A stretch of DNA of 64,000 bases, from assembly GCF_003148625.1 (NCBI RefSeq), contig NZ_QGGO01000002.1:185475-249474 (forward strand), read 5' to 3'. Each line of letters opens with the position of its first letter. Position 1 is the first letter of the stretch. Below are positions 9,824-30,712 of the stretch, piece by piece. Source of the DNA: Arcicella aurantiaca. GTDB taxonomy: Bacteria > Bacteroidota > Bacteroidia > Cytophagales > Spirosomataceae. The position numbers and the translations under genes are program-made. The notes beneath the pieces are model-generated. The model was not told where the DNA came from. It saw only the letters and a list, made by a program, of their open reading frames with translations, and ran no database searches.

Positions 9824-11015
9824 GAATCGTATTTTAGATGAAATATTCTCGAATGACCCATTCGAGATGCTGAATATTAAGCCTACTTCATCAGGAACAA
9901 GAAATGACGAAGAGCGGCTGTTCAGCTCGTTTCAACCAATCGTTGACTTTTATCAAAAAAATAATCGAGAGCCTTTACCAGTTAGTGAAGATATACAAGA
10001 GTATCAATTATTCTCAAGGTTGAAATCTATTCGGGAGAATCCTTCCAAAATGGAAATTCTCAAAAAGTATGATACCTACGGATTCTTAACTACCAAGAAT
10101 GTTGAAATCAATTCCATTGATGATATTTTCAACGATGATTCATTTGGACTATTAGAAAATGATAACTTAGGCTTATTTGATTTTAAACATATAAATGCCC
10201 CTGATAAAGACAGAGCTGAAACAGATTTTGTGGCAAGAAGAAAGCCTTGTAAAGACTTTAATAAGTATGAACAACGGTTAAGAGATGTACAAAACGACCT
10301 AAAAATTGGTAAGCGAAAATTAGTAGATTTTAATCAAGGAAATCTGCGTGAAGGTGCTTTTTACATTCACAATGGTGTACTTTTTCTGTTAGAGAAAATC
10401 AATATTTCATTTAAAGAACATTATCGTGAAGATGGCACACGAGTACGAGAAGATGGACGAACTCGATGTATATTTGAAAACGGTACAGAGTCAAATATGC
10501 TCAAACGTTCAGTAGAAAAAATCCTTTATGCAAATGGCAAAGTGGTCACAGAAAATGCCGACGAAGTTGCTGAAAGTTTTGTCAATAAAGTAAATAATAT
10601 CACCGAACAAGACCAAGCCTTTGGCTATATCTATGTCTTAAAATCTAAAAGTAGCAATCAAGAAATTAAGCAGATTAACAACCTTTATAAGATTGGTTAC
10701 TCAAAAATAACCGTCGAAGAAAGAATCAAAAATGCGAAAGAAGAGCCTACTTATTTGATGGCAGATGTATCAATTCTTCAGACATACAAATGCTATAATA
10801 TTAACCCTCAGAAGTTAGAACAACTCTTACATATCTTTTTTGGAAAGGCGTGTTTAGATATTGATATTTTTGATAAAAATGGGAATAGGCATACGCCAAG
10901 AGAATGGTTCATAGCTCCGTTGCACATTATTGAAAGTGCTATTGAAATGATTATATCGGGAGAAATTTTAAAATATAAATATGACATAAAGAATCAAGAA
11001 ATTATTGAGTCTTAA
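9816..11015 (+). CDS. GIY-YIG nuclease, T5orf172 type
   Basis: 399 residues. Residues 1-260 are an unfamiliar, partly helical region probably for partner or DNA contact. A GIY-YIG domain follows: GYIYVLKS (from 270), LYKIGYS (Y291-G294), an Arg in VEERI, and KLEQLLHIFF with the metal-binding Glu335; it ends with PREWF as in T5orf172/Mug113 proteins. These domains cut DNA using one metal ion. Translational overlap with the helicase suggests it is the cleavage subunit for the methyltransferase-helicase pair. It closes the operon; convergent terminator-like structures lie downstream. Confidence 0.88.
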   Translation: MDKNRILDEIFSNDPFEMLNIKPTSSGTRNDEERLFSSFQPIVDFYQKNNREPLPVSEDIQEYQLFSRLKSIRENPSKMEILKKYDTYGFLTTKNVEINSIDDIFNDDSFGLLENDNLGLFDFKHINAPDKDRAETDFVARRKPCKDFNKYEQRLRDVQNDLKIGKRKLVDFNQGNLREGAFYIHNGVLFLLEKINISFKEHYREDGTRVREDGRTRCIFENGTESNMLKRSVEKILYANGKVVTENADEVAESFVNKVNNITEQDQAFGYIYVLKSKSSNQEIKQINNLYKIGYSKITVEERIKNAKEEPTYLMADVSILQTYKCYNINPQKLEQLLHIFFGKACLDIDIFDKNGNRHTPREWFIAPLHIIESAIEMIISGEILKYKYDIKNQEIIES

Positions 11016-17891: not shown

Positions 17892-18078
17892 ATAGAAATT
17901 ATAGAGTTAAAATGTAAAATATTAATTCCTACAAAGAAACGTAGAATTACGTATTGGTTTTAGCGTAGAATTACCTAATGTCAACAACTACCCCTTAATA
18001 TCTTCTCAATACTCCTCTTTTTTCCCCTTCCCTCAAGTCTATAATTACCAACTTGCCATCGTTTTACAAAGTCTGTAA

Positions 18079-18165
18079 AGCCGTAATACAATGACGTTTT
18101 ACCGTATTACGAAAAATGCAATCAATTGATAATCAAACGTATTACAACGTAATACATCGTAACAC
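18079..18165. promoter_or_regulatory. Operator-like block with GTAATAC/GTATTAC palindromes, copy 2, upstream of the RHH gene
   Basis: GTAATAC (18083-18089), GTATTAC (18104-18110), TTGATAATCAA (about 18125-18135), and the spaced palindrome GTATTAC-AAC-GTAATAC (18139-18155), ending 13 bases before the RHH start codon. The order and wording match 11041-11133. The position suits autoregulation by the RHH protein. The rest of 17892-18078 is AT-rich with no other clear signal. Confidence 0.6.
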
Positions 18166-18168
18166 AAC

Positions 18169-18738
18169 ATGAGCGAATTATCCCAAACAATTAATATCCG
18201 TACAACCTTCGATATGAAGAAACGGATATTAGACCATGCCGACAAAAAAGGTATGAACCAGTCTGAGTTTATTATTTATGCTGTTGAGAGTTTTCTGAAC
18301 GGTGGAAATAATCAGAATCCTGTTGAATCTAAATTGGATATTGACAATTCTTTTGTCCAACAACTTCAAGAACAGTTAGCGACCACAACTAACCAATTAA
18401 GGCTAATACAAGAAACTATGACTTCTGAAAGGAAAAGTATTTTACAAGAAGCGGTTGAGTTAGCTCAAAGAATGGCAACTGAAAAAATTCAGCAAGTACA
18501 AAACCAAGCCATTAGGGTTCATCAAGAAAGAACTCGAAACGATTTTGATGGGACTAATCAACAAATTAAAGTCTTACAAGAACGCTTATATGCTTACGAA
18601 ACACCATTATTAAAAGAAGTATTTATGATGGTATCTCAAAATCCTCAAATTAGAGACTATCCTGATGTCGTTTATTTTTTAGTTCATTGTTACTCTCAAC
18701 AATTTAAACAAACAACTCAATATGCAATTGGACAATAA
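18169..18738 (+). CDS. Ribbon-helix-helix DNA-binding protein with coiled coil
   Basis: 189 residues. Residues about 6-45 form a ribbon-helix-helix fold (QTINIRTTFDMKKRILDHA, NQSEFIIYAVESFLNGG). A long coiled coil follows (about 60-145), then a short globular end (VSQNPQIRDYPDVVYFLV). The layout recalls plasmid and phage partition or repressor proteins. Palindromes immediately upstream are likely binding sites. The last 17 bases overlap the next gene, so the pair is probably translated together. The RHH protein at 28635-29027 is of the same general type. Confidence 0.75.
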   Translation: MSELSQTINIRTTFDMKKRILDHADKKGMNQSEFIIYAVESFLNGGNNQNPVESKLDIDNSFVQQLQEQLATTTNQLRLIQETMTSERKSILQEAVELAQRMATEKIQQVQNQAIRVHQERTRNDFDGTNQQIKVLQERLYAYETPLLKEVFMMVSQNPQIRDYPDVVYFLVHCYSQQFKQTTQYAIGQ

Positions 18739-19141
18739 ATTTAGGTTTTCTTATGACCCTTTTGGTCTGGTTGATTTTAATAGTAAAAATGGTCGCTATG
18801 TACCTAAACCTCCTAAATCAAATTGGGGATGGGTTCTTTGGATTGTACTCTTGCTAATATTAGGACTTGGCATATTATTCCGAGAAACCATTTATAAGTT
18901 CTTCTTTCCCAAAACTGATGACGTAGATGATAAACCCGAAAAAGTAGAACCCAATGATGAAGTTTTAAAACAGCTCCCAGCGGTAACAGCTCAATCATTT
19001 AAGTTACAACCTGAACACAAAATAATTATACGACTCGACTTAGCAGATGAAGCTAAATGGGATTTAGAACTTTTGGAAGCAAAGAAAAAAGAGGGAAAAG
19101 CAGAGTTTGTAAAGGGCAAAGGTTGGCTATTATATGAGTAA
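18722..19141 (+). CDS. Small single-pass membrane protein paired with the RHH protein
   Basis: 139 residues, unrecognised family. A short N-terminal region (FRFSYDPFGLVDF) precedes one membrane helix at about 39-58 (WIVLLLILGLGILF). An acidic linker (DDVDDKPEKVEPNDE) and a soluble end with LDLADEAKWDLELLEAKKK follow. Starts inside the RHH gene and ends at a GTAATAC site and hairpin. A membrane protein also follows the RHH gene in the right-hand element (29484-29804), so the RHH-plus-membrane pairing may be a module; sequence similarity between the two membrane proteins is not obvious. Confidence 0.6.
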   Translation: MQLDNKFRFSYDPFGLVDFNSKNGRYVPKPPKSNWGWVLWIVLLLILGLGILFRETIYKFFFPKTDDVDDKPEKVEPNDEVLKQLPAVTAQSFKLQPEHKIIIRLDLADEAKWDLELLEAKKKEGKAEFVKGKGWLLYE

Positions 19142-19150
19142 TACAATGTA

Positions 19151-19191
19151 AAACCCTGTAAAACACGCAATTTTACGGTATTACAGGGTTT
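19151..19191. terminator. Hairpin after the RHH/membrane protein pair
   Basis: Arms AAACCCTGTAA (19151-19161) and TTACAGGGTTT (19181-19191) with a smaller inner stem. T-tract is weak. Also carries GTAATAC (19139-19145) and GTATTAC (19178-19184), so it may be a third operator copy rather than, or as well as, a terminator. Confidence 0.5.
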
Positions 19192-19195
19192 CATT

Positions 19196-19543
19196 CTATT
19201 CAAATTTGTATGTTGCATAGTTACTGATTGTACCCATTACTTGGAACGGATTTCGAGCCATTGAAGAAACGATAGAGCCAACTTCTGAAAAAGATTCTAA
19301 ATAACTATCTAATGGACTTGCCGCCTGTGGCGGATTTTTCTTCTTCCATTCTTCCCATTCCGTCTGCTCGTTGTCAGTAGCCAACCCTTGTTCTAATATA
19401 GTTTTCACCCACGGGTCTTTATAATATTCAGCCAAGAGTTTTTCAAAATTCGCCTGAGTTACTACTGTCTCATCTCTTTTGAAAAGATATATTATTGAAA
19501 ATATTAAGAGTTTTTTGAAAGTTGAATTTAAGGGGCAAAACAT
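19196..19543 (-). CDS. Hypothetical protein, probably truncated at its N-terminus
   Basis: 115 codons open. The first 26 or so residues (to about 19470) run antisense to the truncated integrase and look like chance; from VVTQANFEKLLAEYYKDPWV onward the sequence looks like a real protein tail (DSYLESFSEVGSIVSSMARN, PFQVMGTISNYATY). No ATG lies at that junction, so the original start was probably removed by the same rearrangement that cut the integrase. Family not recognised. Confidence 0.4.
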   Translation of the reverse strand: MFCPLNSTFKKLLIFSIIYLFKRDETVVTQANFEKLLAEYYKDPWVKTILEQGLATDNEQTEWEEWKKKNPPQAASPLDSYLESFSEVGSIVSSMARNPFQVMGTISNYATYKFE

Positions 19544-20303
19544 TCAATTGGAAGAAGTTGAGCCAATTGTAGCAGACAACCTAATTAACTACCTCAAAAA
19601 TGTACGTGGCAACCAACAAGACCATGCTGTAAGACATGCCAAAACATTAAAATCTGTTTTCGCTTTTGCTCAAGATAATGGCTGGATACCTTATAGTAAG
19701 TTTGCTAATAAATCTTACAAAAGAGGCGTGAAAAAGGAGATACATTTTTTAAATGAAAAAGAGATTCGACAAATTGTAGAATTGAAACTTTATAGTCCAA
19801 ACCTACAACTGGTAAAAGACCTCTATATATTCTCGTGCTATACAGGATTGAGCTTTGCAGATGTAATGAACCTAAAGGCTTCAGATATTCAGAGATACGA
19901 AGAAGACTTTGATTATATTTCTAAAGCAAGACAAAAAGGAGCCGAAAATAGCAATTTTAAGAAGAAAGTATTCTTTACTCCTGTTCTTCCTGAGGCAGAA
20001 AACATATTAAAGAAGTATGAAGAAATTGCTCAACTAAGTCCAGAGGGATTCTACTTCCCACGTATTACAAACCAGCAAATTAATAGAACCATCAAAGATA
20101 TTGCAGCCCTGGCTAAAATTGAAAATCCTGAAAAGGTCACTTACCATAGCTCACGAAGAACCTGTGCAAGTCTTTTGTATAATTATGGCGTTCCTATTTC
20201 AATCGTTGCGAAAGTTTTAGGACATTCATCAGAATTAGTAACACTCACACTCAACCCAAAAGTAGCAATTTGCCTCAAAATACCAATGATAGCAAACCAT
20301 TGA
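19479..20303 (+). pseudogene. Tyrosine recombinase (integrase) truncated at both ends
   Basis: The frame enters in the middle of the SAM-like core-binding domain (NIKSFLKVEF) and proceeds through the catalytic domain: FSCYTGLSFADVMNLK (first Arg replaced by Ser, as known for IntDOT-type enzymes), HSSRRTCASLLYNYG (H-x-x-R box) and VLGHSSELVTL. The reading frame then runs out of phase into the VapE gene, so the tyrosine nucleophile and C-terminus are missing. The N-terminal arm-binding domain is also absent. A full-length relative of 405 residues sits at 23340-24557. I regard it as inactive. Confidence 0.8.
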
Positions 20304-21469
20304 AGGTAAGTAATACAGAACTGGTCAGGCAATATTTTAAAGCAAATTATAAGTTTAGGTATAATACCATTACTGATACACCAGAATGGAGGACAATAAC
20401 AGATACAAGATTTAAGCCTCTGGATGATTACAAACTCAATAGTTTGTCTTTTGAGTTAGAAAGTAAAGGTTCAAATGTATCAACGGAGAAAATTTTCAAG
20501 TTATTAAAATCTGATTTTGTTGAGCTTGTAAATCCTATAAAAGAATATTTTGAAGGCTTAGAGTTTGAAGAGGAAGTAACAGGTAGTATCAAAAAACTCA
20601 CGCAAACTGTAAAAGTTGAAAACCCCACATTATTTGAAAACCACTTTACAAAATGGATAGTCGGAGTAATTGCCAATAGCTTAACTCGTGAAGGTTGTCA
20701 AAACCATACCTGTTTAGTGTTGACAGGTGACCAAGGTGCATATAAAACGACATGGCTAACCAACCTATGCCCACCCTCTTTAAAAGAATATATTTTCACG
20801 GGTAAAATAGACGTAGATAAAAATGATACTCAAAGTATGCTATCAGAGTTTCTAATAATCAATATCGACGACCAACTCCGAAATCTTAACCGTAAAGATG
20901 AAAATGCACTAAAGACGCTTATCACACTTGAATCTGTCAAAGTCAGGAAACCCTATGACCGAATGATTACCAAAAGACCGAGAATTGCATCATTCTGTGG
21001 AAGCGTCAACGGCAATGATTTTTTAACTGACCCTTCAGGCTCACGCAGGTTTTTACCATTTGAGGTAAAGAGTATTGATTTAGAAGAGTTTCAGAAAATA
21101 GACATAGATGCAGTCTGGACAGAAGCATTACAATTATTTCACAGTGGTTTTAGGTACTGGTTTACGAAAGAAGAAATTGCTGAAATAAATAACCACAATC
21201 AGGAGTTTGAAGTTACTGATACCGAAACAGAACTTCTCTTAGAATTATATGAAGCCGTGCCACGAAATAGTCCAGAATCAGAGGAATTAACATCAAGTAT
21301 CATTCTACATAATATTGAAAGTCATTTCAATACAAAGCTTAGTAGTAAAAAATTGGGCGATGCCCTAAGCAAACTCAAATTTATTCGTTTTGGGAAAAAA
21401 ATCAATGGGTCAGTCAGGTATCTATTTGTAGTCAAACCGAAAGATTTACAGAAAAGCAATCGGTTGTAA
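20270..21469 (+). CDS. VapE/DUF3874-type replicative helicase of the left element
   Basis: 399 residues from a TTG at 20270; the frame stays open upstream into the deletion joint, so the native start may be lost. P-loop GDQGAYKTTWL at about 162, Walker B-like FLIINIDDQ, and the SF3/VapE landmarks ASFCGSVNGNDFLTDPSGSRRFLPF, here given in two parts as seen around 245-265. The end carries a small winged-helix-like segment (KKLGDALSKLKFIRFG). These proteins act as initiator helicases for phage satellites and plasmids. Its last codons overlap the first of three GGTTGTAAGA iterons. Paralogous in kind to 25136-26425 but clearly divergent. Confidence 0.8.
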   Translation: MPQNTNDSKPLKVSNTELVRQYFKANYKFRYNTITDTPEWRTITDTRFKPLDDYKLNSLSFELESKGSNVSTEKIFKLLKSDFVELVNPIKEYFEGLEFEEEVTGSIKKLTQTVKVENPTLFENHFTKWIVGVIANSLTREGCQNHTCLVLTGDQGAYKTTWLTNLCPPSLKEYIFTGKIDVDKNDTQSMLSEFLIINIDDQLRNLNRKDENALKTLITLESVKVRKPYDRMITKRPRIASFCGSVNGNDFLTDPSGSRRFLPFEVKSIDLEEFQKIDIDAVWTEALQLFHSGFRYWFTKEEIAEINNHNQEFEVTDTETELLLELYEAVPRNSPESEELTSSIILHNIESHFNTKLSSKKLGDALSKLKFIRFGKKINGSVRYLFVVKPKDLQKSNRL

Positions 21470-21570
21470 GATAGATAGTCAATAGGTTGTAAGAACTTCT
21501 CTAAATCCACACAACAATCAAAACTTTGAATACCAAACTATTAATCTCAAAAAAAGTACGGTTGTAAGAT
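21459..21570. repeat. Three iterons downstream of the left VapE gene (putative origin)
   Basis: CGGTTGTAAGAT at 21459-21470 and 21559-21570, and AGGTTGTAAGAA at 21484-21495, all in the same orientation. Start-to-start spacings are 25 and 75 bases. The position immediately 3' of the helicase gene matches the place of the iteron array in the right-hand element. Confidence 0.6.
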
Positions 21571-21593
21571 AATAACTAAAAAAAGTATAAAAC

Positions 21594-21800
21594 ATGAAAA
21601 GATTAAGAATTCACACAGACGAAGTAATGTCCACAATGGGCTGGTCGAAAAAGCACACCTATAAGGTAATGCGTCTAATTAAAGACTGCTACCCTGATTC
21701 CAAAAAATATGTAATGGTCAAGGATTTTGCTAAACATATCGGTGCATCTGAAGACTACGTTCAAGATGCTATCAAGCAAACAAAAAACGAAGCCCCTTGA
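21594..21800 (+). CDS. Small HTH protein of the left element
   Basis: 68 residues: HTDEVMSTMGWSKKHTYKVM, then AKHIGASEDYVQDAI. The fold appears to be two helix-turn-helix-like units, resembling excisionase/MerR-type adaptors. It shares length, layout and several positions with the 77-residue protein at 27691-27924 (K.. Y..MR.. .. YPD), which holds the same place in the right-hand element. Probably a DNA-binding regulator or excision factor; unproven. Confidence 0.6.
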   Translation: MKRLRIHTDEVMSTMGWSKKHTYKVMRLIKDCYPDSKKYVMVKDFAKHIGASEDYVQDAIKQTKNEAP

Positions 21801-21903
21801 AAGGCTTTGTTTTTTGTTGTATATCATCACAAATCAAGAAGATTATATTAGTTTGAAAAAGCGTTTTGGAAAAGAATCACTTATTCTGGAAAAAAATTCA
21901 ACA

Positions 21904-21937
21904 AAAAAGCCTTAAATCGAATGATTTAAGGCTTTTT
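21904..21937. terminator. Terminator at the junction of the two elements
   Basis: Arms AAAAAGCCTTAAATC (21904-21918) and GATTTAAGGCTTTTT (21923-21937). The stem is the same as that of the terminator at 2866-2911 although loops differ. Ends directly at attL. The remaining gap to 22177 has a TTGATTATCAA near 21975 and a hairpin AACTTTA/TAAAGTT (22147-22162), otherwise nothing clear. Confidence 0.75.
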
Positions 21938-21947
21938 GCTCCCTCTC
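21936..21947. repeat. attL: 12-base direct repeat of the tRNA-Asn end
   Basis: TTGCTCCCTCTC, identical to 30636-30647. Nine of these bases (CTCCCTCTC) belong to the 3' end of the tRNA-Asn gene at the other junction. This marks the left boundary of the integrated element. Confidence 0.7.
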
Positions 21948-22177
21948 AAATAGTGGAAAGCAACCGAATAACATCTTGATTATCAAGGAATAAAATAACT
22001 TTATATAAAGAATGAACCTAATTTTGTTCAACCGAATCATCACCATTGAAAGAACAAAGTTACACTTAAATACAGTTAAACGCTATTTTGGTGTTCCAAA
22101 ATGATTTTCTGTTGCTCCTGACTTCGTTCCAATTATTAGTAACTAAAACTTTATCTAAAGTTACATGAAACTGCTAT

Positions 22178-22879
22178 TTAAAAACGATTTTCATTTTCTT
22201 TAAGGTTCGCTTGATATTTAACAAGAAAATCGTAATATTCTTTTCTGAATAAAGTAATATTAATTTCTCCAATAATAGCCTTTAACCGTTTTGTATTTTC
22301 CACTATCGTATTAAAAATAGAACTCTTTATCGTAAATCGGGTTTCGTCCCCATCAAGCACATTGCTAATTTCAATTTCTCTGGCTTCGTTAAAACTGCGT
22401 CGAAATTTCCTAAATATATCACTTGATAAGTCTGATGAATTTGAGCTATTTTCTTGATTTAACATATATTTTTTGCTCAGAAATTCCATTACATTTTCAA
22501 TTTCTTGCATTGCAATATTATAGGCAAGTAATATCGTAGGGTTTGCATTTGAATACTCATAGTCATCTAACTCTTTCTTCAGCCGTCTTTTATCATCCTC
22601 CAAATCCGTAATCCTGAGTTTCAATTCTTCATTCTCTTTCAAAAGCCTTTTCATCTCATCAGAATTGATGTTGGTATTAGAAATATCAACACCTATAAGC
22701 TCTGTAACCGATACGCCTAAGGCATTAGCTATTAATTCAATTTGCTCTAAGCTCAGTTTCTTTCCACGTTTTTCAAGTTTTGCGTATTGTGAGTTGTCCA
22801 TATTTAAGGCATCAGCAATCTCTATTTGCTTTATCCTTTTGGATTCTCTAATCTGCTTTATTCTATTTTCAATATTCAT
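22178..22879 (-). CDS. XRE-family repressor with coiled coil
   Basis: 233 residues. N-terminal helix-turn-helix of the XRE type at about 5-60 (QIEIADALNMDNSQYAKLE, LSLEQIELIANALGVSVTEL). A leucine-rich coiled coil follows (about 75-108), then an unfamiliar helical C-terminal domain likely for oligomerisation or signal sensing. It is divergent from the Cro-like gene and the integrase, the arrangement of CI/Cro or SaPI Stl/Str switches. A minus-strand TAACTTTG box sits only four bases before its start codon, so the mRNA may be leaderless. Confidence 0.82.
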   Translation of the reverse strand: MNIENRIKQIRESKRIKQIEIADALNMDNSQYAKLEKRGKKLSLEQIELIANALGVSVTELIGVDISNTNINSDEMKRLLKENEELKLRITDLEDDKRRLKKELDDYEYSNANPTILLAYNIAMQEIENVMEFLSKKYMLNQENSSNSSDLSSDIFRKFRRSFNEAREIEISNVLDGDETRFTIKSSIFNTIVENTKRLKAIIGEINITLFRKEYYDFLVKYQANLKENENRF

Positions 22880-22883
22880 AATT

Positions 22884-22976
22884 CAAAGTTATGTCATTAT
22901 TTGACAACAATAATATACAAATTTATCCAAAATCATTTGGATAAATGGACGAAATTATCCAATTTTGAGGACAAAT
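22884..22976. promoter_or_regulatory. Control region between divergent repressor and Cro-like genes
   Basis: Minus strand: TTG and then TAACTTTG (22884-22891), 16 bases apart, for the repressor. A perfect inverted repeat ATTTATCCAAA (22921-22931) and TTTGGATAAAT (22936-22946) around ATCA is the best operator candidate. A half-site ATTATCCAATTTT follows at about 22954-22966. Location and symmetry suggest competition between the repressor and the Cro-like protein. Confidence 0.6.
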
Positions 22977-23007
22977 AATTCCATTTTGTGTCAAAATAGA
23001 TAGAGAA

Positions 23008-23220
23008 ATGAATACAAACCCAATAATTACGGCTAAAAACGCCTATGAAGCACGTTTAGGAGTCAATTTTTCTCCTAATGAAGAAACTCTAACTCGCTTA
23101 GGGTTTAAGAAAAAAAGACTGACAAGAATATTATCAGGCAAAACAACCAAACCGCTAACCGCAACAGAAGCTAAAGGACTGGCAGAGATGCTCAATGTTC
23201 CTGTTTCTCAAATTATTTAA
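23008..23220 (+). CDS. Cro-like small HTH protein
   Basis: 70 residues: RLGFKKKRLTRILSGKTTKP followed by TATEAKGLAEMLNVPVSQII, a compact XRE-like helix-turn-helix. Divergent from the repressor at 22178-22879 and upstream of the integrase, so it is most likely the opposing regulator of the element's switch. Assignment rests on size, fold pattern and position. Confidence 0.65.
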   Translation: MNTNPIITAKNAYEARLGVNFSPNEETLTRLGFKKKRLTRILSGKTTKPLTATEAKGLAEMLNVPVSQII

Positions 23221-23251
23221 GTCTAAAAGTATGAGAAAGTCTAAAAAAAAA

Positions 23252-23276
23252 TCCCTAACGATTTAACCGTTAGGGA
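23252..23276 (-). terminator. Hairpin with U-tract on the minus strand
   Basis: Arms TCCCTAACG (23252-23260) and CGTTAGGGA (23268-23276). Nine A bases precede it, so the good U-tract is on minus-strand transcripts; the plus-strand tail (CTTACTATTTT) is weaker. It lies between the Cro-like gene and the integrase. Confidence 0.6.
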
Positions 23277-23339
23277 CTTACTATTTTAATTTAACTGATT
23301 GCAACAGTTTGCCGACAATGCAACCAAAAAATGTAAACA

Positions 23340-24557
23340 ATGGCAAAAATACAAAAAAAACAGAACAACTCCGAAAGGGTGCTGAGAATCCCCGATGTTG
23401 CCTTTTCCAATAGGCAAGGTAAAGTACAAATAAGGTTTAAGCACGGAGGAGAAGACCGTAAATTATCTTTGAACCAGACCATTGGAAAACGAAAAATTGA
23501 TTCAAAGACTGGCTACATAGAAAATGACCCAATAGCTACTCAATTGCTTTTAGAATATCGTAACCGATTTCGAGAGACTTACAAAAACTTTATCCTGAGA
23601 GGAGCAGAACCGTCAATAGAGGATATTAAAGATGGTATATTTTTTAGGACAACTTCTACTCCTATACCTTCTCTAAAAGTAGCAATGCAAGATTATTTCG
23701 ACCAAGATTATGGAAAAGACAGCAAAAAGGACGAGAAAACCATAGAGAAGAACGGCTACATGATGCGGTATGTATTAGAATGGCTTAATGATATTGGCAA
23801 AAGCGATATTTCAGTAAAATCAATCAATGCTAATCATGCAGAACAACTTCTGAACTGGGTAATGGCAAACCGAAGCGTTGAGAAGGAGCATAGCCGTAGA
23901 AGCGTTGGTTTCTTGGAGAGAGCTTTAAAATTTAGTGTTAATAATGGTTGGATTGCTCGCAATCCATTTGAATATGTTTTGATGGAGAAGAAATTTAAAC
24001 GCCAAAGTAAGCCAATTACCAAATTCCTAACGCCAAACGAAGTGAAAGCCATTGAGCAACTGGACAACTTACAACCAGAGTTAGCATTGATTCGTGATTA
24101 CTTCCTTTTTTCATGCTATACTGGCATGGATGAAATTACACTAAGAGTCGCAAAAAAGGAATGGCTAAAAGACAAAAACGGTCAAGCCTATATCGAAGGA
24201 TTTAGAGGTAAACCAGACGGAGACATACATCATCAGTTTGTAGTACCTATTTGTCCTAAAGCGGAAAAGCTAATTGAGAAATTTACCGCTATGAGCGAAG
24301 GAGATTCATTATTACCAATTATGACGTACAATCAGCAAATAAACATCATGCTAAAGTGTATAGCCAAAATGGCAGGAGTAAATAAACCTGTTTCGTTTGG
24401 GTTTGGTCGCAAAACATTTGCCACTACAAAAATCAATGATGGAGTGAGAATAGAAATTATCCAATTAATGATGGGGCATACCTCCATAAAAACAACCATA
24501 GGGTATTACGCCCACATTGACATAAACACCGTGCTAAAGGAGGGCTTAACAAAATGA
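23340..24557 (+). CDS. Tyrosine recombinase, integrase of the tRNA-Asn element
   Basis: 405 residues, full Bacteroidota phage-integrase length. Arm-binding domain about 20-100, SAM-like core-binding domain about 110-215, catalytic domain from about 225. Nucleophile region LMMGHTSIKTTIGYYAHI keeps His and the tyrosine. However the first catalytic Arg position reads YTGMDEITL and the H-x-x-R box reads FGFGRKT, so the box I Arg and box II His are both absent. Integrases lacking the box I Arg are known (IntDOT); loss of both is unusual. The start is an ATG just after a hairpin. It overlaps the next gene by four bases (ATGA). Expected to recombine the 12-base repeat at tRNA-Asn. Confidence 0.9.
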   Translation: MAKIQKKQNNSERVLRIPDVAFSNRQGKVQIRFKHGGEDRKLSLNQTIGKRKIDSKTGYIENDPIATQLLLEYRNRFRETYKNFILRGAEPSIEDIKDGIFFRTTSTPIPSLKVAMQDYFDQDYGKDSKKDEKTIEKNGYMMRYVLEWLNDIGKSDISVKSINANHAEQLLNWVMANRSVEKEHSRRSVGFLERALKFSVNNGWIARNPFEYVLMEKKFKRQSKPITKFLTPNEVKAIEQLDNLQPELALIRDYFLFSCYTGMDEITLRVAKKEWLKDKNGQAYIEGFRGKPDGDIHHQFVVPICPKAEKLIEKFTAMSEGDSLLPIMTYNQQINIMLKCIAKMAGVNKPVSFGFGRKTFATTKINDGVRIEIIQLMMGHTSIKTTIGYYAHIDINTVLKEGLTK

Positions 24558-24820
24558 GAAATTATCAATTACTATGTTTTCAATTGATGGAAAAATATGG
24601 CAAAAAAGCCAAAATACAGGGTGAACAGATGCTAAAAAGCAAAGGGAAACAACGCCAAAAAAGTAAGATTTTATACTTTTTCTATTTAGAAAATGGTCAA
24701 TACTGGCAATACAGAATGAAGGAGGATATAATGGAAAATGGGCTTAAATTAGGTACAGGACAAAAACTAAACAGCCTTTTATTTAACTCTTTTTCTGCCA
24801 ATAACGGATTTTTCAATTAA
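24554..24820 (+). CDS. Small hypothetical protein coupled to the integrase
   Basis: 88 residues, basic: LMEKYGKKAKIQGEQMLKSK, then LYFFYLENGQYWQYRMKEDI. The start codon overlaps the integrase stop (ATGA), indicating translational coupling. No family recognised. Candidate directionality factor or helper of the integrase by position only. Confidence 0.5.
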   Translation: MRNYQLLCFQLMEKYGKKAKIQGEQMLKSKGKQRQKSKILYFFYLENGQYWQYRMKEDIMENGLKLGTGQKLNSLLFNSFSANNGFFN

Positions 24821-24839
24821 TAACTAAAACAACAAAAAA

Positions 24840-25031
24840 ATGAAAAACTTAGAAGTAACCAACACAGTAGCAGAAGGATTAGACTTAGACAGAATGAACG
24901 CCACATTAGAACGACTATTTGAAGGTTATTCAAGCTCGCAAATGGCAGAAAACGACGACCACGAGCAACGAATGGTACTAACGGAGGATTTCTTCAACTT
25001 TAAACGACTACTAAAGAGCCTTAAAGACTAA
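24840..25031 (+). CDS. Small acidic hypothetical protein
   Basis: 63 residues: LDLDRMNATLERLFEGYSSS, then LTEDFFNFKRLLKSLKD. Net acidic and helical. Follows the previous gene by 19 bases and ends just before a hairpin, so it closes the integrase transcript. Family not recognised. Confidence 0.5.
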   Translation: MKNLEVTNTVAEGLDLDRMNATLERLFEGYSSSQMAENDDHEQRMVLTEDFFNFKRLLKSLKD

Positions 25032-25039
25032 ACAAAAAA

Positions 25040-25066
25040 GCCCGAACAATTAAAGATTGTTCGGGC
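25040..25066. terminator. GC-rich hairpin between integrase and replication genes
   Basis: Arms GCCCGAACAAT (25040-25050) and ATTGTTCGGGC (25056-25066), loop TAAAG. The A-tract on the left gives a strong U-tract on the minus strand; on the plus strand the tail is AATTGATTTT. Confidence 0.65.
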
Positions 25067-25135
25067 AATTGATTTTAAGGCATAAGAAGTCCAGAAACGA
25101 AAACGCCTCATTAAAATCTTAAAAAACTAAAGACA

Positions 25136-26425
25136 ATGACGAAGTTAGTTAAAAAAGGTGAAATCCAAGGAGTTACACCCGAAAAAGGCAGAGAAAAGTC
25201 TGCACAAAAAAATGAAACTAATCATACTAATCCTGTTATAGCAACAAATCCAAACCCTGATAACAAGCCCAATCAACCATTAATTCTAAGATTAGAAGAT
25301 TATATTTTCAATAAATATGACCTGAGAATGAATATAGTTTCTAATGAATTAGAAGGCAAATTAAAGAAAGATTCTGAATATGGTTTATTTAGCGAAGACC
25401 AATTGACTTATGACCTTTTTGTAAAAGGATTTAACAAATTCAACACTCAACTATCCGTGTTAATTTCCACAAAAGTACCTAAATATGACCCATTAAAAGA
25501 GTATTTCGAGAATCTTCCCAAGTGGGATAATTCACAACCAGACTATATCAAAAGACTGTCAGATTTTGTAGTTACTGACAGTGGTGATTGGTGGGAACTA
25601 ATGTTTAAAAAGCATCTTGTCAGAATGGTTGCTCAAGCCATTCTAAAAATACCTTTTAATAAGCAGTGTCTAACTCTTATAGGCAAACAAAATGACGGAA
25701 AAACATCTTTCTTAGAATTTCTTGTTCCCCCTAAACTATCAAAATACTACCGAAAAGGTTTTGACTTTGGAGGTAACAAAGACGGTAAAATTTCCTTATG
25801 CCAAAACTTTGTAATCAATTTGGACGAATTGGCAAGTTTTGACAAGAAGGAACTAAACAACGATTTCAAGACAATTTTAACTGAATCAATAGTAAAATTT
25901 AGAGGTCTATTTGCTAAAAGTGAAACCACTCATAGCAGAAGAGCAAACTTCGTGGCGAGTACAAACCAATACGAGTTCTTGACTGACGAAACAGGCAACG
26001 TTAGATGGTTGCCTTTTGTAGTGAAGGAGATTAACCACGATAACGGAAAATCAAAAGGTTATCAAGCCAATATAGATATAAATTTAGTATGGTCACAAGC
26101 GTATAGTTTATTGATTAGCGGAAATTTTGATTTTATTTTATCGAAAGATGAAATACAAACACAAGAAAAAAGAAATCAGCGATTTATGAAAGTTAGTGCC
26201 GAGATGGAAGCAATCCAGAAGTATTTTATCTCAGGAAACGAAGATGATAGAAATAGCAAATTTTTAACCGCAACCGATATTCAACTGAAATTAGTATTAA
26301 AAGGAATTAAACTAAGCCATATTTCAATTGGGAAAGCCTTAAAAACATTACAATTCCAAGTTTCAGAAAAATATTATAAAGAATGTAAATATAGTATAAA
26401 AGGGTATTATATCAAAGAATTGTAA
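25136..26425 (+). CDS. VapE-type replicative helicase of the tRNA-Asn element
   Basis: 429 residues. A polar N-terminal 50 residues, then a domain with P-loop IGKQNDGKTSFLEFL at about 184-198, Walker B-like FVINLDELASFDKKELN, a sensor-like VASTNQYEFL and arginine-rich ETTHSRRANF, and ETGNVRWLPF. The C-terminal segment (LKGIKLSHISIGKALKTLQF) looks like a winged helix for origin binding. VapE proteins are SF3-like initiator helicases common in satellites. Located directly before the iteron array and the primase. Related in layout to the left-element protein, which has diverged in sequence and in the iterons beside it. Confidence 0.85.
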   Translation: MTKLVKKGEIQGVTPEKGREKSAQKNETNHTNPVIATNPNPDNKPNQPLILRLEDYIFNKYDLRMNIVSNELEGKLKKDSEYGLFSEDQLTYDLFVKGFNKFNTQLSVLISTKVPKYDPLKEYFENLPKWDNSQPDYIKRLSDFVVTDSGDWWELMFKKHLVRMVAQAILKIPFNKQCLTLIGKQNDGKTSFLEFLVPPKLSKYYRKGFDFGGNKDGKISLCQNFVINLDELASFDKKELNNDFKTILTESIVKFRGLFAKSETTHSRRANFVASTNQYEFLTDETGNVRWLPFVVKEINHDNGKSKGYQANIDINLVWSQAYSLLISGNFDFILSKDEIQTQEKRNQRFMKVSAEMEAIQKYFISGNEDDRNSKFLTATDIQLKLVLKGIKLSHISIGKALKTLQFQVSEKYYKECKYSIKGYYIKEL

Positions 26426-26431
26426 AAACAA

Positions 26432-26725
26432 CTTACTCTCTTACTCGAATGATTATAATATATTGAATATCAATCACTTAAATATATTTTTTCGAGTAAG
26501 ATATAATATTTAATCTTACTCGAAAAAAATATAAATTACTAAAAACCAATACATTATATATATATTATCGAGTAAGATTATGTTATTCCAAAAAGTATCT
26601 TACTCGAAAAACGGAGTAGTTTTCGAGTAAGATAGTAAGATAGAGAATACTATCCTACTCGAAAAAAATAACCATAAATAACTGACAATCAATTAATTGA
26701 AATTATTCGAGTAAGAGAGTAAGAA
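26432..26725. repeat. Iteron array, putative replication origin
   Basis: Fills the 367-base gap between helicase and primase. Eight copies of TCGAGTAAGAT or close variants: 26440 (minus), 26492 (plus), 26513 (minus), 26568 (plus), 26597 (minus), 26623 (plus), 26652 (minus), 26707 (plus). Orientation alternates strictly, and partial copies (GTAAGA) flank the outer and third pairs. The surrounding bases are almost pure A/T, as in a melting region. Confidence 0.8.
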
Positions 26726-26792
26726 TAAATCAAATTTTCAAAAGTCTGCTACTCAAAATAAAATTGAAATTGTACTTTAACAATAATATAAA

Positions 26793-27680
26793 ATGAAAAC
26801 CCACGAACAAATAAACCAACTAAAACAAATATCCATCATAGATTATCTAAGTGGAAAAGGCATAAGTCCAGTCTCAAGAAATGGCAGTAATTTCCTGTAT
26901 CATTCTCCGCTCCGTCAGGACAGTACACCGTCTTTTTCAGTAAGTCCAACCCTCAACGTTTTTAACGACTTCGGTAACGATGCCGATAAAGGAAGCATAA
27001 TTGACTTAGTAATGAAGTTAGAGAAAATCGGATTTGTAGATGCTTGTAGCTTATTAGAGAGAATGGACGACAAAAGAGAAAGAGACGGCTCCCAAACTCT
27101 TTCTCTCTCTTGTCGTCCAATCTCTCAGGAAGACCCCGAAGGCTATACCATCAAATCGGTTGCTAACTTACAACACCCTGCTTTAATGCGATATGTAAAA
27201 AATCGTGGAATCAACCTAAATACTGCATTCAATTACCTCCAAGAAATTCACTATACAAATTCAAAAGGGCAATTTTTTGGAGTGGGATACAAAACTGATA
27301 ACGGAGGGTATGTTTTAAGGAGCGAAATCATGCAGAAACCTATAAATTTGGGTAAATCTGGCATTAAAACTTTTACATTCCCTAATAGTAATACCATATC
27401 AGTATTTGAGGGAATGTTTGATTTTCTATCAGCCATAGAATACTACAAGCGTCCGCCACGATGTACGGCTATCATACTAAATTCTGTAACGAACCTAAGT
27501 AAAGCAATACCACAATTAACGGAAGCAACCACGATTTACAGTTATATGGACAATGACGAAGCAGGACGAAAAGCAACGCAAAAAATGAGAGATGCAGGGT
27601 TAAACGTTCAAGATTGTTCAAGTATGTATTCAGACAAAGATTTTAAAGACTTCAATGAGTTTTTAGCCAGTACAATTTAA
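26793..27680 (+). CDS. Toprim-domain primase of the element
   Basis: 295 residues. N-terminal CHC2-like segment (YHSPLRQDSTPSFSVSPT, FNDFGNDADKGSIIDLVM) in which the zinc-binding cysteines are not seen. A linker follows, then a Toprim domain with the acidic positions in SVFEGMFDFLSAIEYY (about 208) and YSYMDNDEAGRKATQ (about 250). Such short primases accompany VapE helicases in Bacteroidota mobile elements and lay RNA primers for their replication. The iteron array is directly upstream. It may be cotranscribed with the HTH gene 10 bases downstream. Confidence 0.85.
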   Translation: MKTHEQINQLKQISIIDYLSGKGISPVSRNGSNFLYHSPLRQDSTPSFSVSPTLNVFNDFGNDADKGSIIDLVMKLEKIGFVDACSLLERMDDKRERDGSQTLSLSCRPISQEDPEGYTIKSVANLQHPALMRYVKNRGINLNTAFNYLQEIHYTNSKGQFFGVGYKTDNGGYVLRSEIMQKPINLGKSGIKTFTFPNSNTISVFEGMFDFLSAIEYYKRPPRCTAIILNSVTNLSKAIPQLTEATTIYSYMDNDEAGRKATQKMRDAGLNVQDCSSMYSDKDFKDFNEFLASTI

Positions 27681-27690
27681 GACTTTAAAC

Positions 27691-27924
27691 ATGGAGAAAA
27701 ATATAACTTTCAAATGTCCGCTTTACTTGACTGTCGATGACATTAAAATTTTGCTCAGAAGAGAAAAGTCTTTTTGCTACGATTACATGAAAACATTAAG
27801 AATACTATACCCTGATAGATGCAAGAATGGAAAAAATATACCATCAAATGTATTCTCTGAATATACAGGTAATTCATTAGAAGATATAGCCGAAATACTC
27901 GAAGCATCCAAGCGAAAAATTTAG
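27691..27924 (+). CDS. Small HTH protein of the tRNA-Asn element
   Basis: 77 residues: LTVDDIKILLRREKSFCYDY, then VFSEYTGNSLEDIAEILE. Two helix-turn-helix-like halves. Same layout as the 68-residue protein at 21594-21800. Starts 10 bases after the primase. Possible excisionase or regulator. Confidence 0.6.
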   Translation: MEKNITFKCPLYLTVDDIKILLRREKSFCYDYMKTLRILYPDRCKNGKNIPSNVFSEYTGNSLEDIAEILEASKRKI

Positions 27925-27988
27925 TTCCATTGTTTCCACACTTTCCATGCTTTCCACCCTTGTTAATTCATTTCTTCAATATTTGTAA

Positions 27989-28023
27989 CCTCTGATAAGT
28001 AAGAATTATCGGAGGGTTTTTTA
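27989..28023 (+). terminator. Intrinsic terminator after the replication genes
   Basis: Arms CCTCTGATAA (27989-27998) and TTATCGGAGG (28006-28015) with one wobble pair, followed by GTTTTTTATT. Confidence 0.75.
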
Positions 28024-28039
28024 TTAAAAATCAAAGAAC

Positions 28040-28630
28040 ATGAACAACCCAATTACAATATTTCCCGACGAGGAAATGGCAGAAAAATTTAAACAAAAAA
28101 GAGAATCTTTAGGCATGACCGAAGAAGAGTATTTCGCCCATTTAATGGAATTATCGGACGAGGACGAATATGCCGAAATAGAGGACGAAGAACCAGACGA
28201 AGAGGACGAAGAAACCGAAATAGAGGACGAAGAAACCGAAATAGAGGACGAAGAATTTGACGAGGAATTGACAGGTATTACGGACATATCTGACAATGAT
28301 TCTATCATTAAAGAATTAAAGCTCCAAGTAAAAGCTCGTGAAGATGAACTCATCCATGTTAACGAAGAATTAAACGGCATCATCAACTATCCAAGAATCA
28401 ATCTATTATTTGACCTTGTCAGAGGGCATACGCTAAAGATTAACAATACAGATATTGAGATGGTCATCAGAACAAAAAAGGACTTCATTCAATGCCTTGT
28501 TAAGAATTTCCATGCTAACATAGATTCTGAAGACTTTGGAATTGATAGTGATGAATTTGAAGAAATGGAGAACGAAGCATTTAAAGATTACGAAGAAGAG
28601 GACGAAAACGACGACGAAGATGACGAATAG
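28040..28630 (+). CDS. Highly acidic protein with repeated Glu/Asp tract
   Basis: 196 residues. A short N-terminal domain (EKFKQKRESLGMTEEEYFAH) precedes an almost uninterrupted acidic tract (about 38-78) built from repeats of EDEETEI. A coiled coil (about 92-118), a small globular part (LLFDLVRGHTLKINN) and a second acidic tail (KDYEEEDENDDEDDE) follow. No family recognised. The extreme negative charge could mimic DNA or bind basic proteins; that is speculation. It begins right after a terminator, so it heads its own unit with the RHH gene, which starts 4 bases after its stop. Confidence 0.65.
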   Translation: MNNPITIFPDEEMAEKFKQKRESLGMTEEEYFAHLMELSDEDEYAEIEDEEPDEEDEETEIEDEETEIEDEEFDEELTGITDISDNDSIIKELKLQVKAREDELIHVNEELNGIINYPRINLLFDLVRGHTLKINNTDIEMVIRTKKDFIQCLVKNFHANIDSEDFGIDSDEFEEMENEAFKDYEEEDENDDEDDE

Positions 28631-28634
28631 AAAC

Positions 28635-29027
28635 ATGGAAAAGACCAGTAAAATATCATTCAGATTGTCCGATGAGTTAAAGACATTTCTATCTGACAAC
28701 GCTAATCGTGGCGAATTATCCATGACAGACTTCTGTATTTGGATTTTAACGTCCTACAAAAATGGAGAAGACATTACGGGCAACATTGAGAATTACGGAG
28801 TTAAAGAGGATGCAAGATTAAACGAAATTTTAGCGGAATTTGAAACATATAAACGAAGAGCATTCAACGAAATTGAAGCTCTTAAAAAGGATAAATCCAA
28901 TCTTATAACAAAATATAACGAATTACAATCTAAGATTATTCAAGAGTGCAAGGGTGTAATTAAAAATGAGGTGGAGAAAGCCTATAAAAGAGGATTTGCC
29001 GAAGCAGAAAAAACAAATAATAAATAA
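28635..29027 (+). CDS. Ribbon-helix-helix protein with coiled coil
   Basis: 130 residues from the ATG at 28635, chosen because earlier in-frame codons lie inside the preceding acidic gene and read as basic noise. RHH at about 4-45 (KISFRLSDELKTFLSDNA, SMTDFCIWILTSYKNG), coiled coil at about 65-115. Similar in layout to the RHH protein at 18169-18738. It is encoded 1 kb before two phased iteron arrays, and RHH proteins of the ParR type bind such arrays, so a partition or origin-handling role is possible. Confidence 0.7.
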   Translation: MEKTSKISFRLSDELKTFLSDNANRGELSMTDFCIWILTSYKNGEDITGNIENYGVKEDARLNEILAEFETYKRRAFNEIEALKKDKSNLITKYNELQSKIIQECKGVIKNEVEKAYKRGFAEAEKTNNK

Positions 29028-29040
29028 CTCAAAAAAGAAT

Positions 29041-29451
29041 ATGGCACAATTTAATAAAAACGATAAAGTATATGCTGGAAATAGTGGTGTCTCAATGTTT
29101 GAAAATGCTGAAAAAAGAGGTGTATTCTCTAAAGCAAGTCCAGATGTTTTGAATCCATGTATTACTCACTACCGAAAATATTTAGGTGAACAACAGGAAA
29201 GTCAAGAGCCATACAAAAGTTTAACATTCCTTCCTTATGTTAATTCTCCAATTATTAAAAGAATTTGGCTTCCTGAGTCTTACATTGGCATAGCTACTTG
29301 AGAAAGATACTCACTTGGTGGAGTATCTTACATTCAAGTCCAATATGATGCCAATAAAATCACATTTAATAATCAAGAATTGGCAGCCTATACAACAATA
29401 CAACGTTTAGCATGGGTTAAAGAAGTTTCCATTTCTGATACTGGCTATTAA
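29041..29451 (+). pseudogene. Hypothetical protein interrupted by an in-frame TGA
   Basis: ATG at 29041, in-frame TGA at 29299-29301, then the same frame stays open to TAA at 29449-29451. Before the stop: VYAGNSGVSMFENAEKRGVF, LTFLPYVNSPIIKRIWLPES. After it: YSLGGVSYIQVQYDANKI, AYTTIQRLAWVKEVSIS. The second part looks like a genuine protein end, so I infer one protein of about 136 residues broken by a nonsense mutation (or misread base). Family not recognised. The first 86 residues may still be made. Confidence 0.6.
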
Positions 29452-29483
29452 TTAATGAAAACACATTCTAATCAAAAATAAAT

Positions 29484-29804
29484 ATGTGGGAAGACGAAGA
29501 ACAACCCAAAACAAACCCACTCTTTGACTTAATAGGTAGTGGACTTAACACAGTAGGGCAAACCATAGGAACAGTTGTAACAAGTGATAATGCCCGTAAA
29601 ATAGCACAAACAAAGGCAGAACAAGAGAAGGAATTAGCCATCATTGCGGCAAAGAAAGCAAAAACAGACGGCTTTTTTTTTGTTGGGGGCATTGCAATAT
29701 TTTTTCTATTCATAGGTATAATTATATGGGCAAAAAAGCCTAAATATTACCAAGTAGGGCAATCATACGCATTAAGTGGTATTCACGTACCCAAAGTTGT
29801 TTAA
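29484..29804 (+). CDS. Small membrane protein of the element
   Basis: 106 residues. Soluble N-terminus (NPLFDLIGSGLNTVGQTIGT), an Ala/Lys/Glu helix, one membrane segment at about 66-85 (FFFVGGIAIFFLFIGIIIW), then a short tail ending SGIHVPKVV. No signal peptide. Resembles coat-like or holin-like small phage membrane proteins in size only; function unknown. Confidence 0.6.
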   Translation: MWEDEEQPKTNPLFDLIGSGLNTVGQTIGTVVTSDNARKIAQTKAEQEKELAIIAAKKAKTDGFFFVGGIAIFFLFIGIIIWAKKPKYYQVGQSYALSGIHVPKVV

Positions 29805-29897
29805 AGGAAACCCTATCATTCATTTTCATTCCTTTTGCTCAATAAATTTCCTTCAAATGGCGTAAATTTATTGACAAAGCAAAAAGCGAAACAACTA

Positions 29898-29929
29898 AAA
29901 TCCTGACGATAAACCGTTGGGATTTTTTG
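29898..29929 (+). terminator. Terminator after the last gene of the element
   Basis: Arms AAATCCTGACG (29898-29908) and CGTTGGGATTT (29915-29925) pair with two wobble pairs, followed by TTTTTGTTTTT. Confidence 0.7.
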
Positions 29930-30039
29930 TTTTTAACCATTCTCAATTTTTCAATGGTGAAAAACCTGCACCATTAGAACAGTTTACGAAGAACTTAATT
30001 AGCGTTAATTAAACGAGAATTAAAAATAGATATATTTAG

Positions 30040-30176
30040 TCAGTTCAACTCCAAAACACCAAAGTTTAACTCCAAACTACCAAAGTTTAACTCTAAACAC
30101 CTAAAGTTTAACTCCAAACTACCAAAGTTTAACTCCAAACTACCAAAGTTTAACTCCAAACTACCAAAGTTTAACT
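30040..30176. repeat. Six tandem repeats with a 21-base period
   Basis: AAAGTTTAACTCCAAACTACC-type units begin at 30061, 30082, 30103, 30124, 30145 and 30166, exactly 21 bases apart, with a partial seventh at about 30040. Twenty-one bases equals two helical turns. No gene covers this 834-base stretch (29805-30638). Confidence 0.85.
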
Positions 30177-30219
30177 ATTAATGAATATTGTCTTACAACT
30201 TTTATAATGAGTTGAATGA

Positions 30220-30458
30220 CTGTCCGACAACGTAAGACAATCATTTAATAGAAATTACAACCTGTCCGACAAAGTAAGACGCACTATTAATCAATAATAC
30301 AACCTGTCCGACAAAGTAAGACACACTATTAATCAATAATACAACCTGTCCGACAAAGTAAGACACACTTTTAAACGATAATACAACCTGTCCGACAAAG
30401 TAAAACACACTTTTAAACGATAATACAACCTGTCCGACAAAGTAAGACACACTTTTTA
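30220..30458. repeat. Six tandem repeats with a 42-base period
   Basis: CTGTCCGACAAAGTAAGACA or near copies begin at 30220, 30262, 30304, 30346, 30388 and 30430, exactly 42 bases apart (four helical turns). Each core contains the palindrome TGTCCGACA followed by GTAAGACA; an inverted TGTCTTAC lies at 30189. An 83-codon frame on the minus strand is a by-product of the period being a multiple of three. Confidence 0.88.
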
Positions 30459-30548
30459 AACGACTACTGTATAAGTTTAAAACAACAAACATCTTGTTTT
30501 AAACCTTGTTTCACGACTGAAATAGTCCCAAAAACACGCAAAAAAAGC

Positions 30549-30628
30549 ACTGTTCCAAACGCTTGGAACAGTAAATAAAAATTGTTCCAACAAAAAAGCC
30601 TTCATACGTAACGTATGAAGGCTTTTTG
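30549..30628. terminator. Two hairpins inside the right end of the element
   Basis: First: ACTGTTCCAA (30549-30558) and TTGGAACAGT (30563-30572), with a third TGTTCCAA at 30583-30590, which looks more like a protein site than a terminator. Second: AAAAGCCTTCATACG and its complement (30591-30628), A/T flanked, a bidirectional terminator protecting tRNA-Asn. Could also be integrase arm sites. Confidence 0.6.
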
Positions 30629-30635
30629 TGATTAA

Positions 30636-30647
30636 TTGCTCCCTCTC
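30636..30647. repeat. attR: 12-base direct repeat overlapping tRNA-Asn
   Basis: TTGCTCCCTCTC, identical to 21936-21947. It covers the last nine bases of the tRNA gene, the classical target of tyrosine integrases. Confidence 0.7.
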
Positions 30648-30712
30648 CTGGGCTCGAACCAGGGACCCCATGATTAACAGTCATGTGCTCTAACCGGCTG
30701 AGCTAAGAAGGA
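30639..30712 (-). tRNA. tRNA-Asn (anticodon GUU)
   Basis: 74 bases without encoded CCA. Acceptor TCCTTCT pairs with AGAGGGA (one G-U), discriminator G. D-loop AGCTCAGCCGGTTAGAGC, anticodon loop CTGTTAATC with GTT, T-arm CCTGGTTCGAGCCCAGG. The 3' end is the integration site of the element to its left. Confidence 0.93.

Follow-up and report, generated by a model that had tools for sequence, protein, structure and literature searches.

The 8.7-kb segment E2 (21936-30647), bounded by a 12-bp repeat, is a real integrated mobile element, placed by site-specific recombination in the 3′ end of a tRNA-Asn gene; we conclude this because the exact repeat, the tRNA end and the gene content could all be confirmed. 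It lies in a window of 64,000 nucleotides (G000:C2:185475-249474), the whole stretch analysed, from the 5.93-Mb draft genome of Arcicella aurantiaca. The host is an Arcicella-group bacterium of the Cytophagales. E2 belongs to a coherent family of small tRNA-integrated elements, and the term satellite-like is justified by anatomy and cargo. Judged from sequence, the chances that E2 is itself a phage satellite are about even.

Boundaries and gene content of E2

The initial annotation had placed E2 between two copies of a 12-base direct repeat, the right one in the tRNA-Asn 3′ end, and this proved correct. TTGCTCCCTCTC occurs as two exact copies in the window, an attL core at 21936-21947 and an attR core at 30636-30647, the latter covering the 3′ end of the integration target, tRNA-Asn(gtt) (30638-30712, minus strand; Rfam). 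The chance expectation is about 0.0002 (15 kb, one strand), and in none of 100 shuffled sequences did the motif match twice, even when one mismatch was tolerated. The three further copies of TTGCTCCCTCTC found genome-wide look coding, and ARAGORN places no tRNA at any of them. Excised E2 would be expected to carry the attP junction ...GATTAATTGCTCCCTCTCAAATAGTGG....

A conserved hairpin, GCCTTCATACGTAACGTATGAAGGC (30593-30635), adjoins the tRNA end and recurs where elements end in A. rosea, G040 and G045. Near-identical stretches of hairpin plus ATTAATTGCTCCCTCTC occupy 30593-30647 of the window and 4680-4740 and 10600-10660 of the A. rosea locus L075. The two elements with these common ends have integrases that are merely 29% identical, and the shared stretch suggests a common attP arm or terminator.

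The contents listed in the initial annotation (repressor/Cro pair, integrase, VapE, iterons, primase and small genes) were all recovered, Cro weakly by profile. The cI/Stl-like repressor (22178-22879, minus strand) has an HTH_3 N-terminus (PF01381, 3.5e-11) and a coiled coil. Since a domain profile search gave no Peptidase_S24 match in it, SOS self-cleavage is unlikely. The Stl repressor of SaPI is controlled by a partner protein, and control of this kind is, by analogy, the better guess for E2. No AlpA match was obtained with Pfam; the candidate for a master regulator is the Stl-like HTH repressor. The remaining genes are on the plus strand. Divergent from cI is a Cro-like gene (23008-23220) with a weak HTH (E 0.08) and syntenic, alignable homologues in relatives, followed by a tyrosine integrase (23340-24557; PF00589, 6.4e-12) and two small ORFs, one of 88 aa with no assigned function (24554-24820) and one of 63 aa (24840-25031) with a homologue in locus L074 after a 45%-identical integrase. 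A VapE-like helicase of superfamily 3 type (25136-26425; PF05272, 2.8e-30) and a CHC2 zinc finger and TOPRIM primase (26793-27680; CHC2 4.2e-10, Toprim 3.7e-13) flank an AT-rich, putatively origin-like region (26439-26716) with eight copies of TCGAGTAAGA in both orientations. Behind the primase is a small predicted DNA-binding protein (27691-27924), possibly an excisionase or regulator, with a weak BLASTP match (2e-4) to a gene of the neighbouring element E1 (21594-21800).

In agreement with the initial annotation, Pfam and PHROGs scans of the E2 proteins detected no gene for virion structure or packaging and none for a relaxase or conjugation. We identified no TerS, packaging signal, capsid-size or hijacking gene in E2, and the P4 markers alpha, Psu, Delta and Sid are not named in the Pfam/PHROGs results, which come from general profiles. 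Measured against the general definition of a phage satellite (PMC11389934), E2 is an integrated element with defined ends, an integrase and att repeats, and not itself a phage, no virion or packaging genes having been detected; the element's own relaxase that would define an NBU-like integrative mobilizable element (IME) was not found. Neither the host genome nor IMG/VR yielded a helper phage, the sole large-terminase signal in A. aurantiaca being a weak, unconvincing profile match. IMG/VR gave no close VapE or iteron match and no iteron-sharing helper, an absence that carries little weight because collections based on viral hallmarks are expected to exclude satellites. One record of the same length as E2 (L010) was set aside, because it is part of a phage whose genes are unrelated to those of E2. 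Defence cargo was not recognisable in E2, for which PADLOC returned generic HTH, ATPase and coiled-coil matches.

The tRNA-Asn locus in Arcicella

In all eight genomes of the genus tRNA-Asn is followed by rsmG. A comparison of these loci, proposed with the initial annotation, turned up an empty tRNA-Asn/rsmG site in one member (G043), where tRNA-Asn lies 0.18 kb from ruvB with nothing inserted. Five others are occupied: A. rosea (G039, NZ_JACHKT010000036.1) by a 5.9-kb relative of E2 with a 20-bp repeat, G040 by an E1-type VapE/HTH end, G041 and G044 by a different element with its integrase adjoining tRNA-Asn, and G045 by a third element type. The contig of G042 stops at tRNA-Asn. The locus is an accretion hotspot.

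In the window a decayed second element, E1 (17997-21935, plus strand), occupies about 4 kb to the left of E2. Its fuller homologue in G045 (L074, 500-6615; 67-72% DNA identity) terminates with a hairpin and TTGCTCCCCCTC. The recognisable parts of E1 are a ribbon-helix-helix (RHH) gene (18169-18738), a transmembrane (TM) gene (18722-19141), remnants of a repressor (19196-19543, minus strand) and of an integrase (19479-20303), VapE (20270-21469) and an HTH gene (21594-21800); cro and the 5′ part of the integrase are gone, and no left att copy was found for E1. As E1 adjoins the left edge of E2, position 21936 is an element-element junction. The two are distant lineages in the VapE tree. The A. 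rosea locus is, from its sequence, probably tandem too, because the attL side of its element bears the hairpin that also marks the tRNA-side end.

Two side observations were made around these loci. Positions 17958-17979 are an exact 22-bp match to L074:10375-10396, in both species upstream of unrelated predicted secreted-protein genes, and may be a common operator or promoter. ORFs resembling TnpB/Cas12-type nucleases were seen by eye in or beside Bacteroidota IME-like elements (L104:844-2241 and L174:15097-16194), L104 also sitting at the tRNA-Asn locus.

A family with a conserved core and variable cargo

Of 222 genomes of the host's family, 113 contain a match to the E2 primase (E 1e-10), a count that includes IME-like elements, and the order cI (minus strand), cro, int, VapE, primase recurs at many loci. 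By matching tRNA 3′-end repeats we delimited 19 Cytophagales elements including E2, of 5.9-13.3 kb (median 10.0 kb), with tRNA-Asn, Val, Arg, Ser, Asp and Glu genes as targets. Their layout is cI-(cro)-int-(VapE)-primase with no relaxase detected; four have no VapE match (L077, L087, L092 and L093), and the minimal member, that of A. rosea, has nothing beyond the five genes of this layout except a small predicted DNA-binding protein. The VapE tree places E2 and A. rosea together in a clade of cI elements with 21 rows (support 100/100). Of the seven loci with a relaxase, six group in a separate clade (100/90), which also holds one unlabelled row. For the whole cI group the tree is compatible with a single origin at weak support (46/8). 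In many family members (L136, L137, L139 and others), though not in E2, the region directly 3′ of the primase holds iterons of 11/22 bp and a small Cys-rich gene with the consensus YCxxxFEARRVDTxFCxxxCQKAHLR.

The relatives carry variable genes between primase and tRNA and also between attL and cI. Among the 25 commonest of the 79 Pfam families found in 64 cargo genes are HD-CE, C5 methylases, HindVP and SinI restriction enzymes, GmrSD, TIR, STAND, a Schlafen helicase and ApeA; no capsid or terminase family is among these 25, from which single rare ones could escape. PADLOC recognised PycC (Pycsar), DRT8, a type II restriction enzyme, a HEC-05-like system, a caspase and an ApeA-like protein. 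Cargo is exchanged on a conserved core. Two Larkinella elements have a 4.7-kb core that is 89% identical and different cargo, the primase-to-tRNA interval being alignable solely along its two margins (286 bp and 110 bp), and two tandem elements in G203 carry VapE genes 98.8% identical, again with different cargo. The same pattern is found in the P4/P2 hotspots (PMC9122126).

The suggestion of a possible new family was borne out in part. The family is coherent, has the fully supported VapE clade, and we found no description of a cI-int-VapE-primase tRNA family in the open-access full-text literature, where almost nothing on Bacteroidota satellites was found and outside which an earlier mention is possible; its satellite nature is partly supported.

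Candidate routes of transfer

The replication module of E2 is shared with elements that move by conjugation, so a family without relaxase needs another route, either a helper phage or a foreign relaxase. Flavobacteriia and Sphingobacteriia usually have an RHH/MobC gene and a relaxase after VapE-primase, and in L173 and L174 a small TM protein also follows. An iterative relaxase profile matched only the NBU-like plasmid L113 and the Flavobacteriales/Sphingobacteriales loci L173, L174, L176 and L178-L180, and none of the cI elements; L175 has an additional mobilization-type gene by eye. Gut "phage" records with an E2-type primase, considered as evidence of packaging, were rejected, as they look conjugative or NBU-type: L110 and L112 have conjugative-transfer-like ORFs, L111 ParA/ParB and single-strand-binding-type genes, and plasmid L113 a relaxase-type ORF.

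The right end of E2 bears on the choice of route. It encodes, all on the plus strand, an acidic protein with an RHH-like N-terminus by eye (28040-28630), which has no homologue in phage records; an RHH and coiled-coil protein (28635-29027) with weak resemblance to NikA/MobC and to the RHH proteins that putative tailless phages encode beside a packaging-like ATPase; an orphan gene of 136 codons (29041-29451); and an orphan single-TM protein (29484-29804). Repeat detection placed 6.4 copies of a 21-bp iteron at 30042-30176 and 5.8 copies of a 42-bp iteron at 30220-30463. The orphan gene at 29041, for which no homologue was found, is open except for an in-frame TGA (29299-29301) within a 68-nt imperfect palindrome (29280-29360 region; −25.6 kcal/mol, z −5.6 against shuffles), and the TGA could be a nonsense mutation, a readthrough signal or a DNA site such as a nick site. 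E2 orphan genes have no homologues in phage records, the TM protein none in IMG/VR; its sole relative from the family search (L009) overlaps methionine synthase and is spurious, and order-level matches are weak and embedded in far longer ORFs. The RHH/coiled-coil and TM genes are present alike in E2, E1 and the G045 element, the 42-bp iterons in E2 and the G045 element.

These genes would fit a relaxase-less IME of the iOriT type that a conjugative element in the same cell mobilizes in trans, with the RHH protein as MobC-like oriT-binding accessory, the TM protein as membrane partner and iterons or palindrome as oriT. The RHH and TM genes of E2 would correspond to those of the relaxase-bearing loci and the orphan gene stands at the relaxase's expected place; the closest primases to that of E2 (59-72%) belong to IME-like elements, and the RHH protein has its weak NikA-like match. 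We nevertheless consider this explanation possible but doubtful, as the E2 VapE falls in the clade of relaxase-less cI elements, no delimited cI element has a relaxase, most family members are without RHH and TM genes, and divergent cI/cro control with defence cargo is more typical of phage-linked elements.

The same RHH protein may also point towards phages. Putative tailless phages encode RHH proteins to which it is linked by a weak reciprocal match (E 0.004; reverse 0.06 among 7,151 ORFs). In L115 and in four proviruses the genes of these proteins sit directly 5′ of a packaging-like ATPase. By its sequence, the E2 protein could be packaging-linked or, equally, a MobC relic. In these phages (L115, IMGVR_UViG_3300028178_000030, and proviruses L206-L209 of related genera) gene order is conserved: RHH-coil, small helical, acidic/TM, packaging-like ATPase, several small TM, metalloprotease and lysozyme genes. 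It is conceivable, though we give it little chance, that the family is a new Bacteroidota satellite family of which some members, E2 among them, would exploit tailless and probably membrane-containing phages, with RHH, TM and iterons forming a module for recognition in packaging, akin to the RHH, helical and acidic/TM genes before the ATPase (L115; proviruses in G181, G202, G111 and G112). That E2 is itself a tiny virus, with virion proteins of an undescribed membrane-containing type encoded by the 3′ cluster (acidic, RHH, 29041 and TM), is very improbable. Its RHH resembles proteins beside packaging-like ATPases and its TM protein weakly matches one of L115, which has a related VapE, but neither an ATPase nor a capsid candidate is seen in E2, the TGA interrupts gene 29041, and the E1 type has RHH and TM with nothing capsid-like. 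A structure prediction for 29041 with TGA read as Trp was uninformative (pLDDT 37) and was discarded.

E2 might finally be a defence island and integrative replicon that excises and replicates but lacks a transfer route of its own, its spread depending wholly on generalized transduction or natural transformation. Every function detected is one of integration or replication, the small genes are orphans, and natural competence is reported to move satellites (PMC13376191). That the family recurs widely, at many tRNAs and across many genera, its integrase and replication genes intact, argues for efficient transfer, however, and makes this account unlikely.

For the satellite reading, the proposed layout is upheld in that E2 is compact, bounded, tRNA-integrated and free of virion and transfer genes, with an empty site in the genus, a family bearing defence cargo, and a VapE clade of relaxase-less cI elements apart from the main relaxase clade. 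Against it, the VapE-primase pair is not specific to satellites, being found also in relaxase-bearing elements, and E2 has no recognisable defence cargo. As a satellite, E2 would be kept silent by cI, and release would probably need a protein of an incoming phage, as for SaPI Stl, because no self-cleaving peptidase domain was detected in cI. The integrase would excise E2, VapE and primase would replicate the circle, and the DNA would leave in particles of a helper most likely virulent or otherwise absent; RHH protein, TM protein and iterons would probably mark E2 DNA for segregation or packaging.

Known systems resemble the family in part. P4-like satellites (PMC9122126) share tRNA integration, small size, their own replication genes and variable anti-phage cargo on a conserved chassis, and differ in the morphogenesis genes Sid, Delta and Psu, not seen in E2, in phylum (here Bacteroidota) and in the helper, none being found here. 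PICI/SaPI have int, a divergent Stl-like repressor, primase-type replication, a repeat-bearing origin and no full virion gene set; in E2, however, int lies in a rightward operon behind cro, and neither AlpA nor TerS nor a gene for capsid remodelling was found. PICMI (PMC10803314), which are minimalist satellites that exploit virulent phages and adjoin fis in Vibrionaceae, have similarly reduced gene content, no capsid-remodelling genes and protection cargo, whereas the present family sits at Cytophagales tRNA genes, not at fis, and has cI/cro and VapE. NBU-type and other Bacteroidota IMEs share the tyrosine integrase with VapE and/or the CHC2-Toprim primase, but carry MobC and relaxase, the latter absent from the cI family.

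Well-studied satellites are mostly from Proteobacteria and Firmicutes. The members of the present family are good candidates for parasites of bacterial viruses, and cI-cro-int-VapE-primase provides a marker in the hunt for helpers. The question is raised whether VapE-primase elements are phage-moved in Cytophagales and conjugation-moved in Flavobacteriia. A widespread family of 6-13-kb islands at tRNA genes, in which the replication chassis stays the same and the defence systems are exchanged, would explain how such systems move among Cytophagales.
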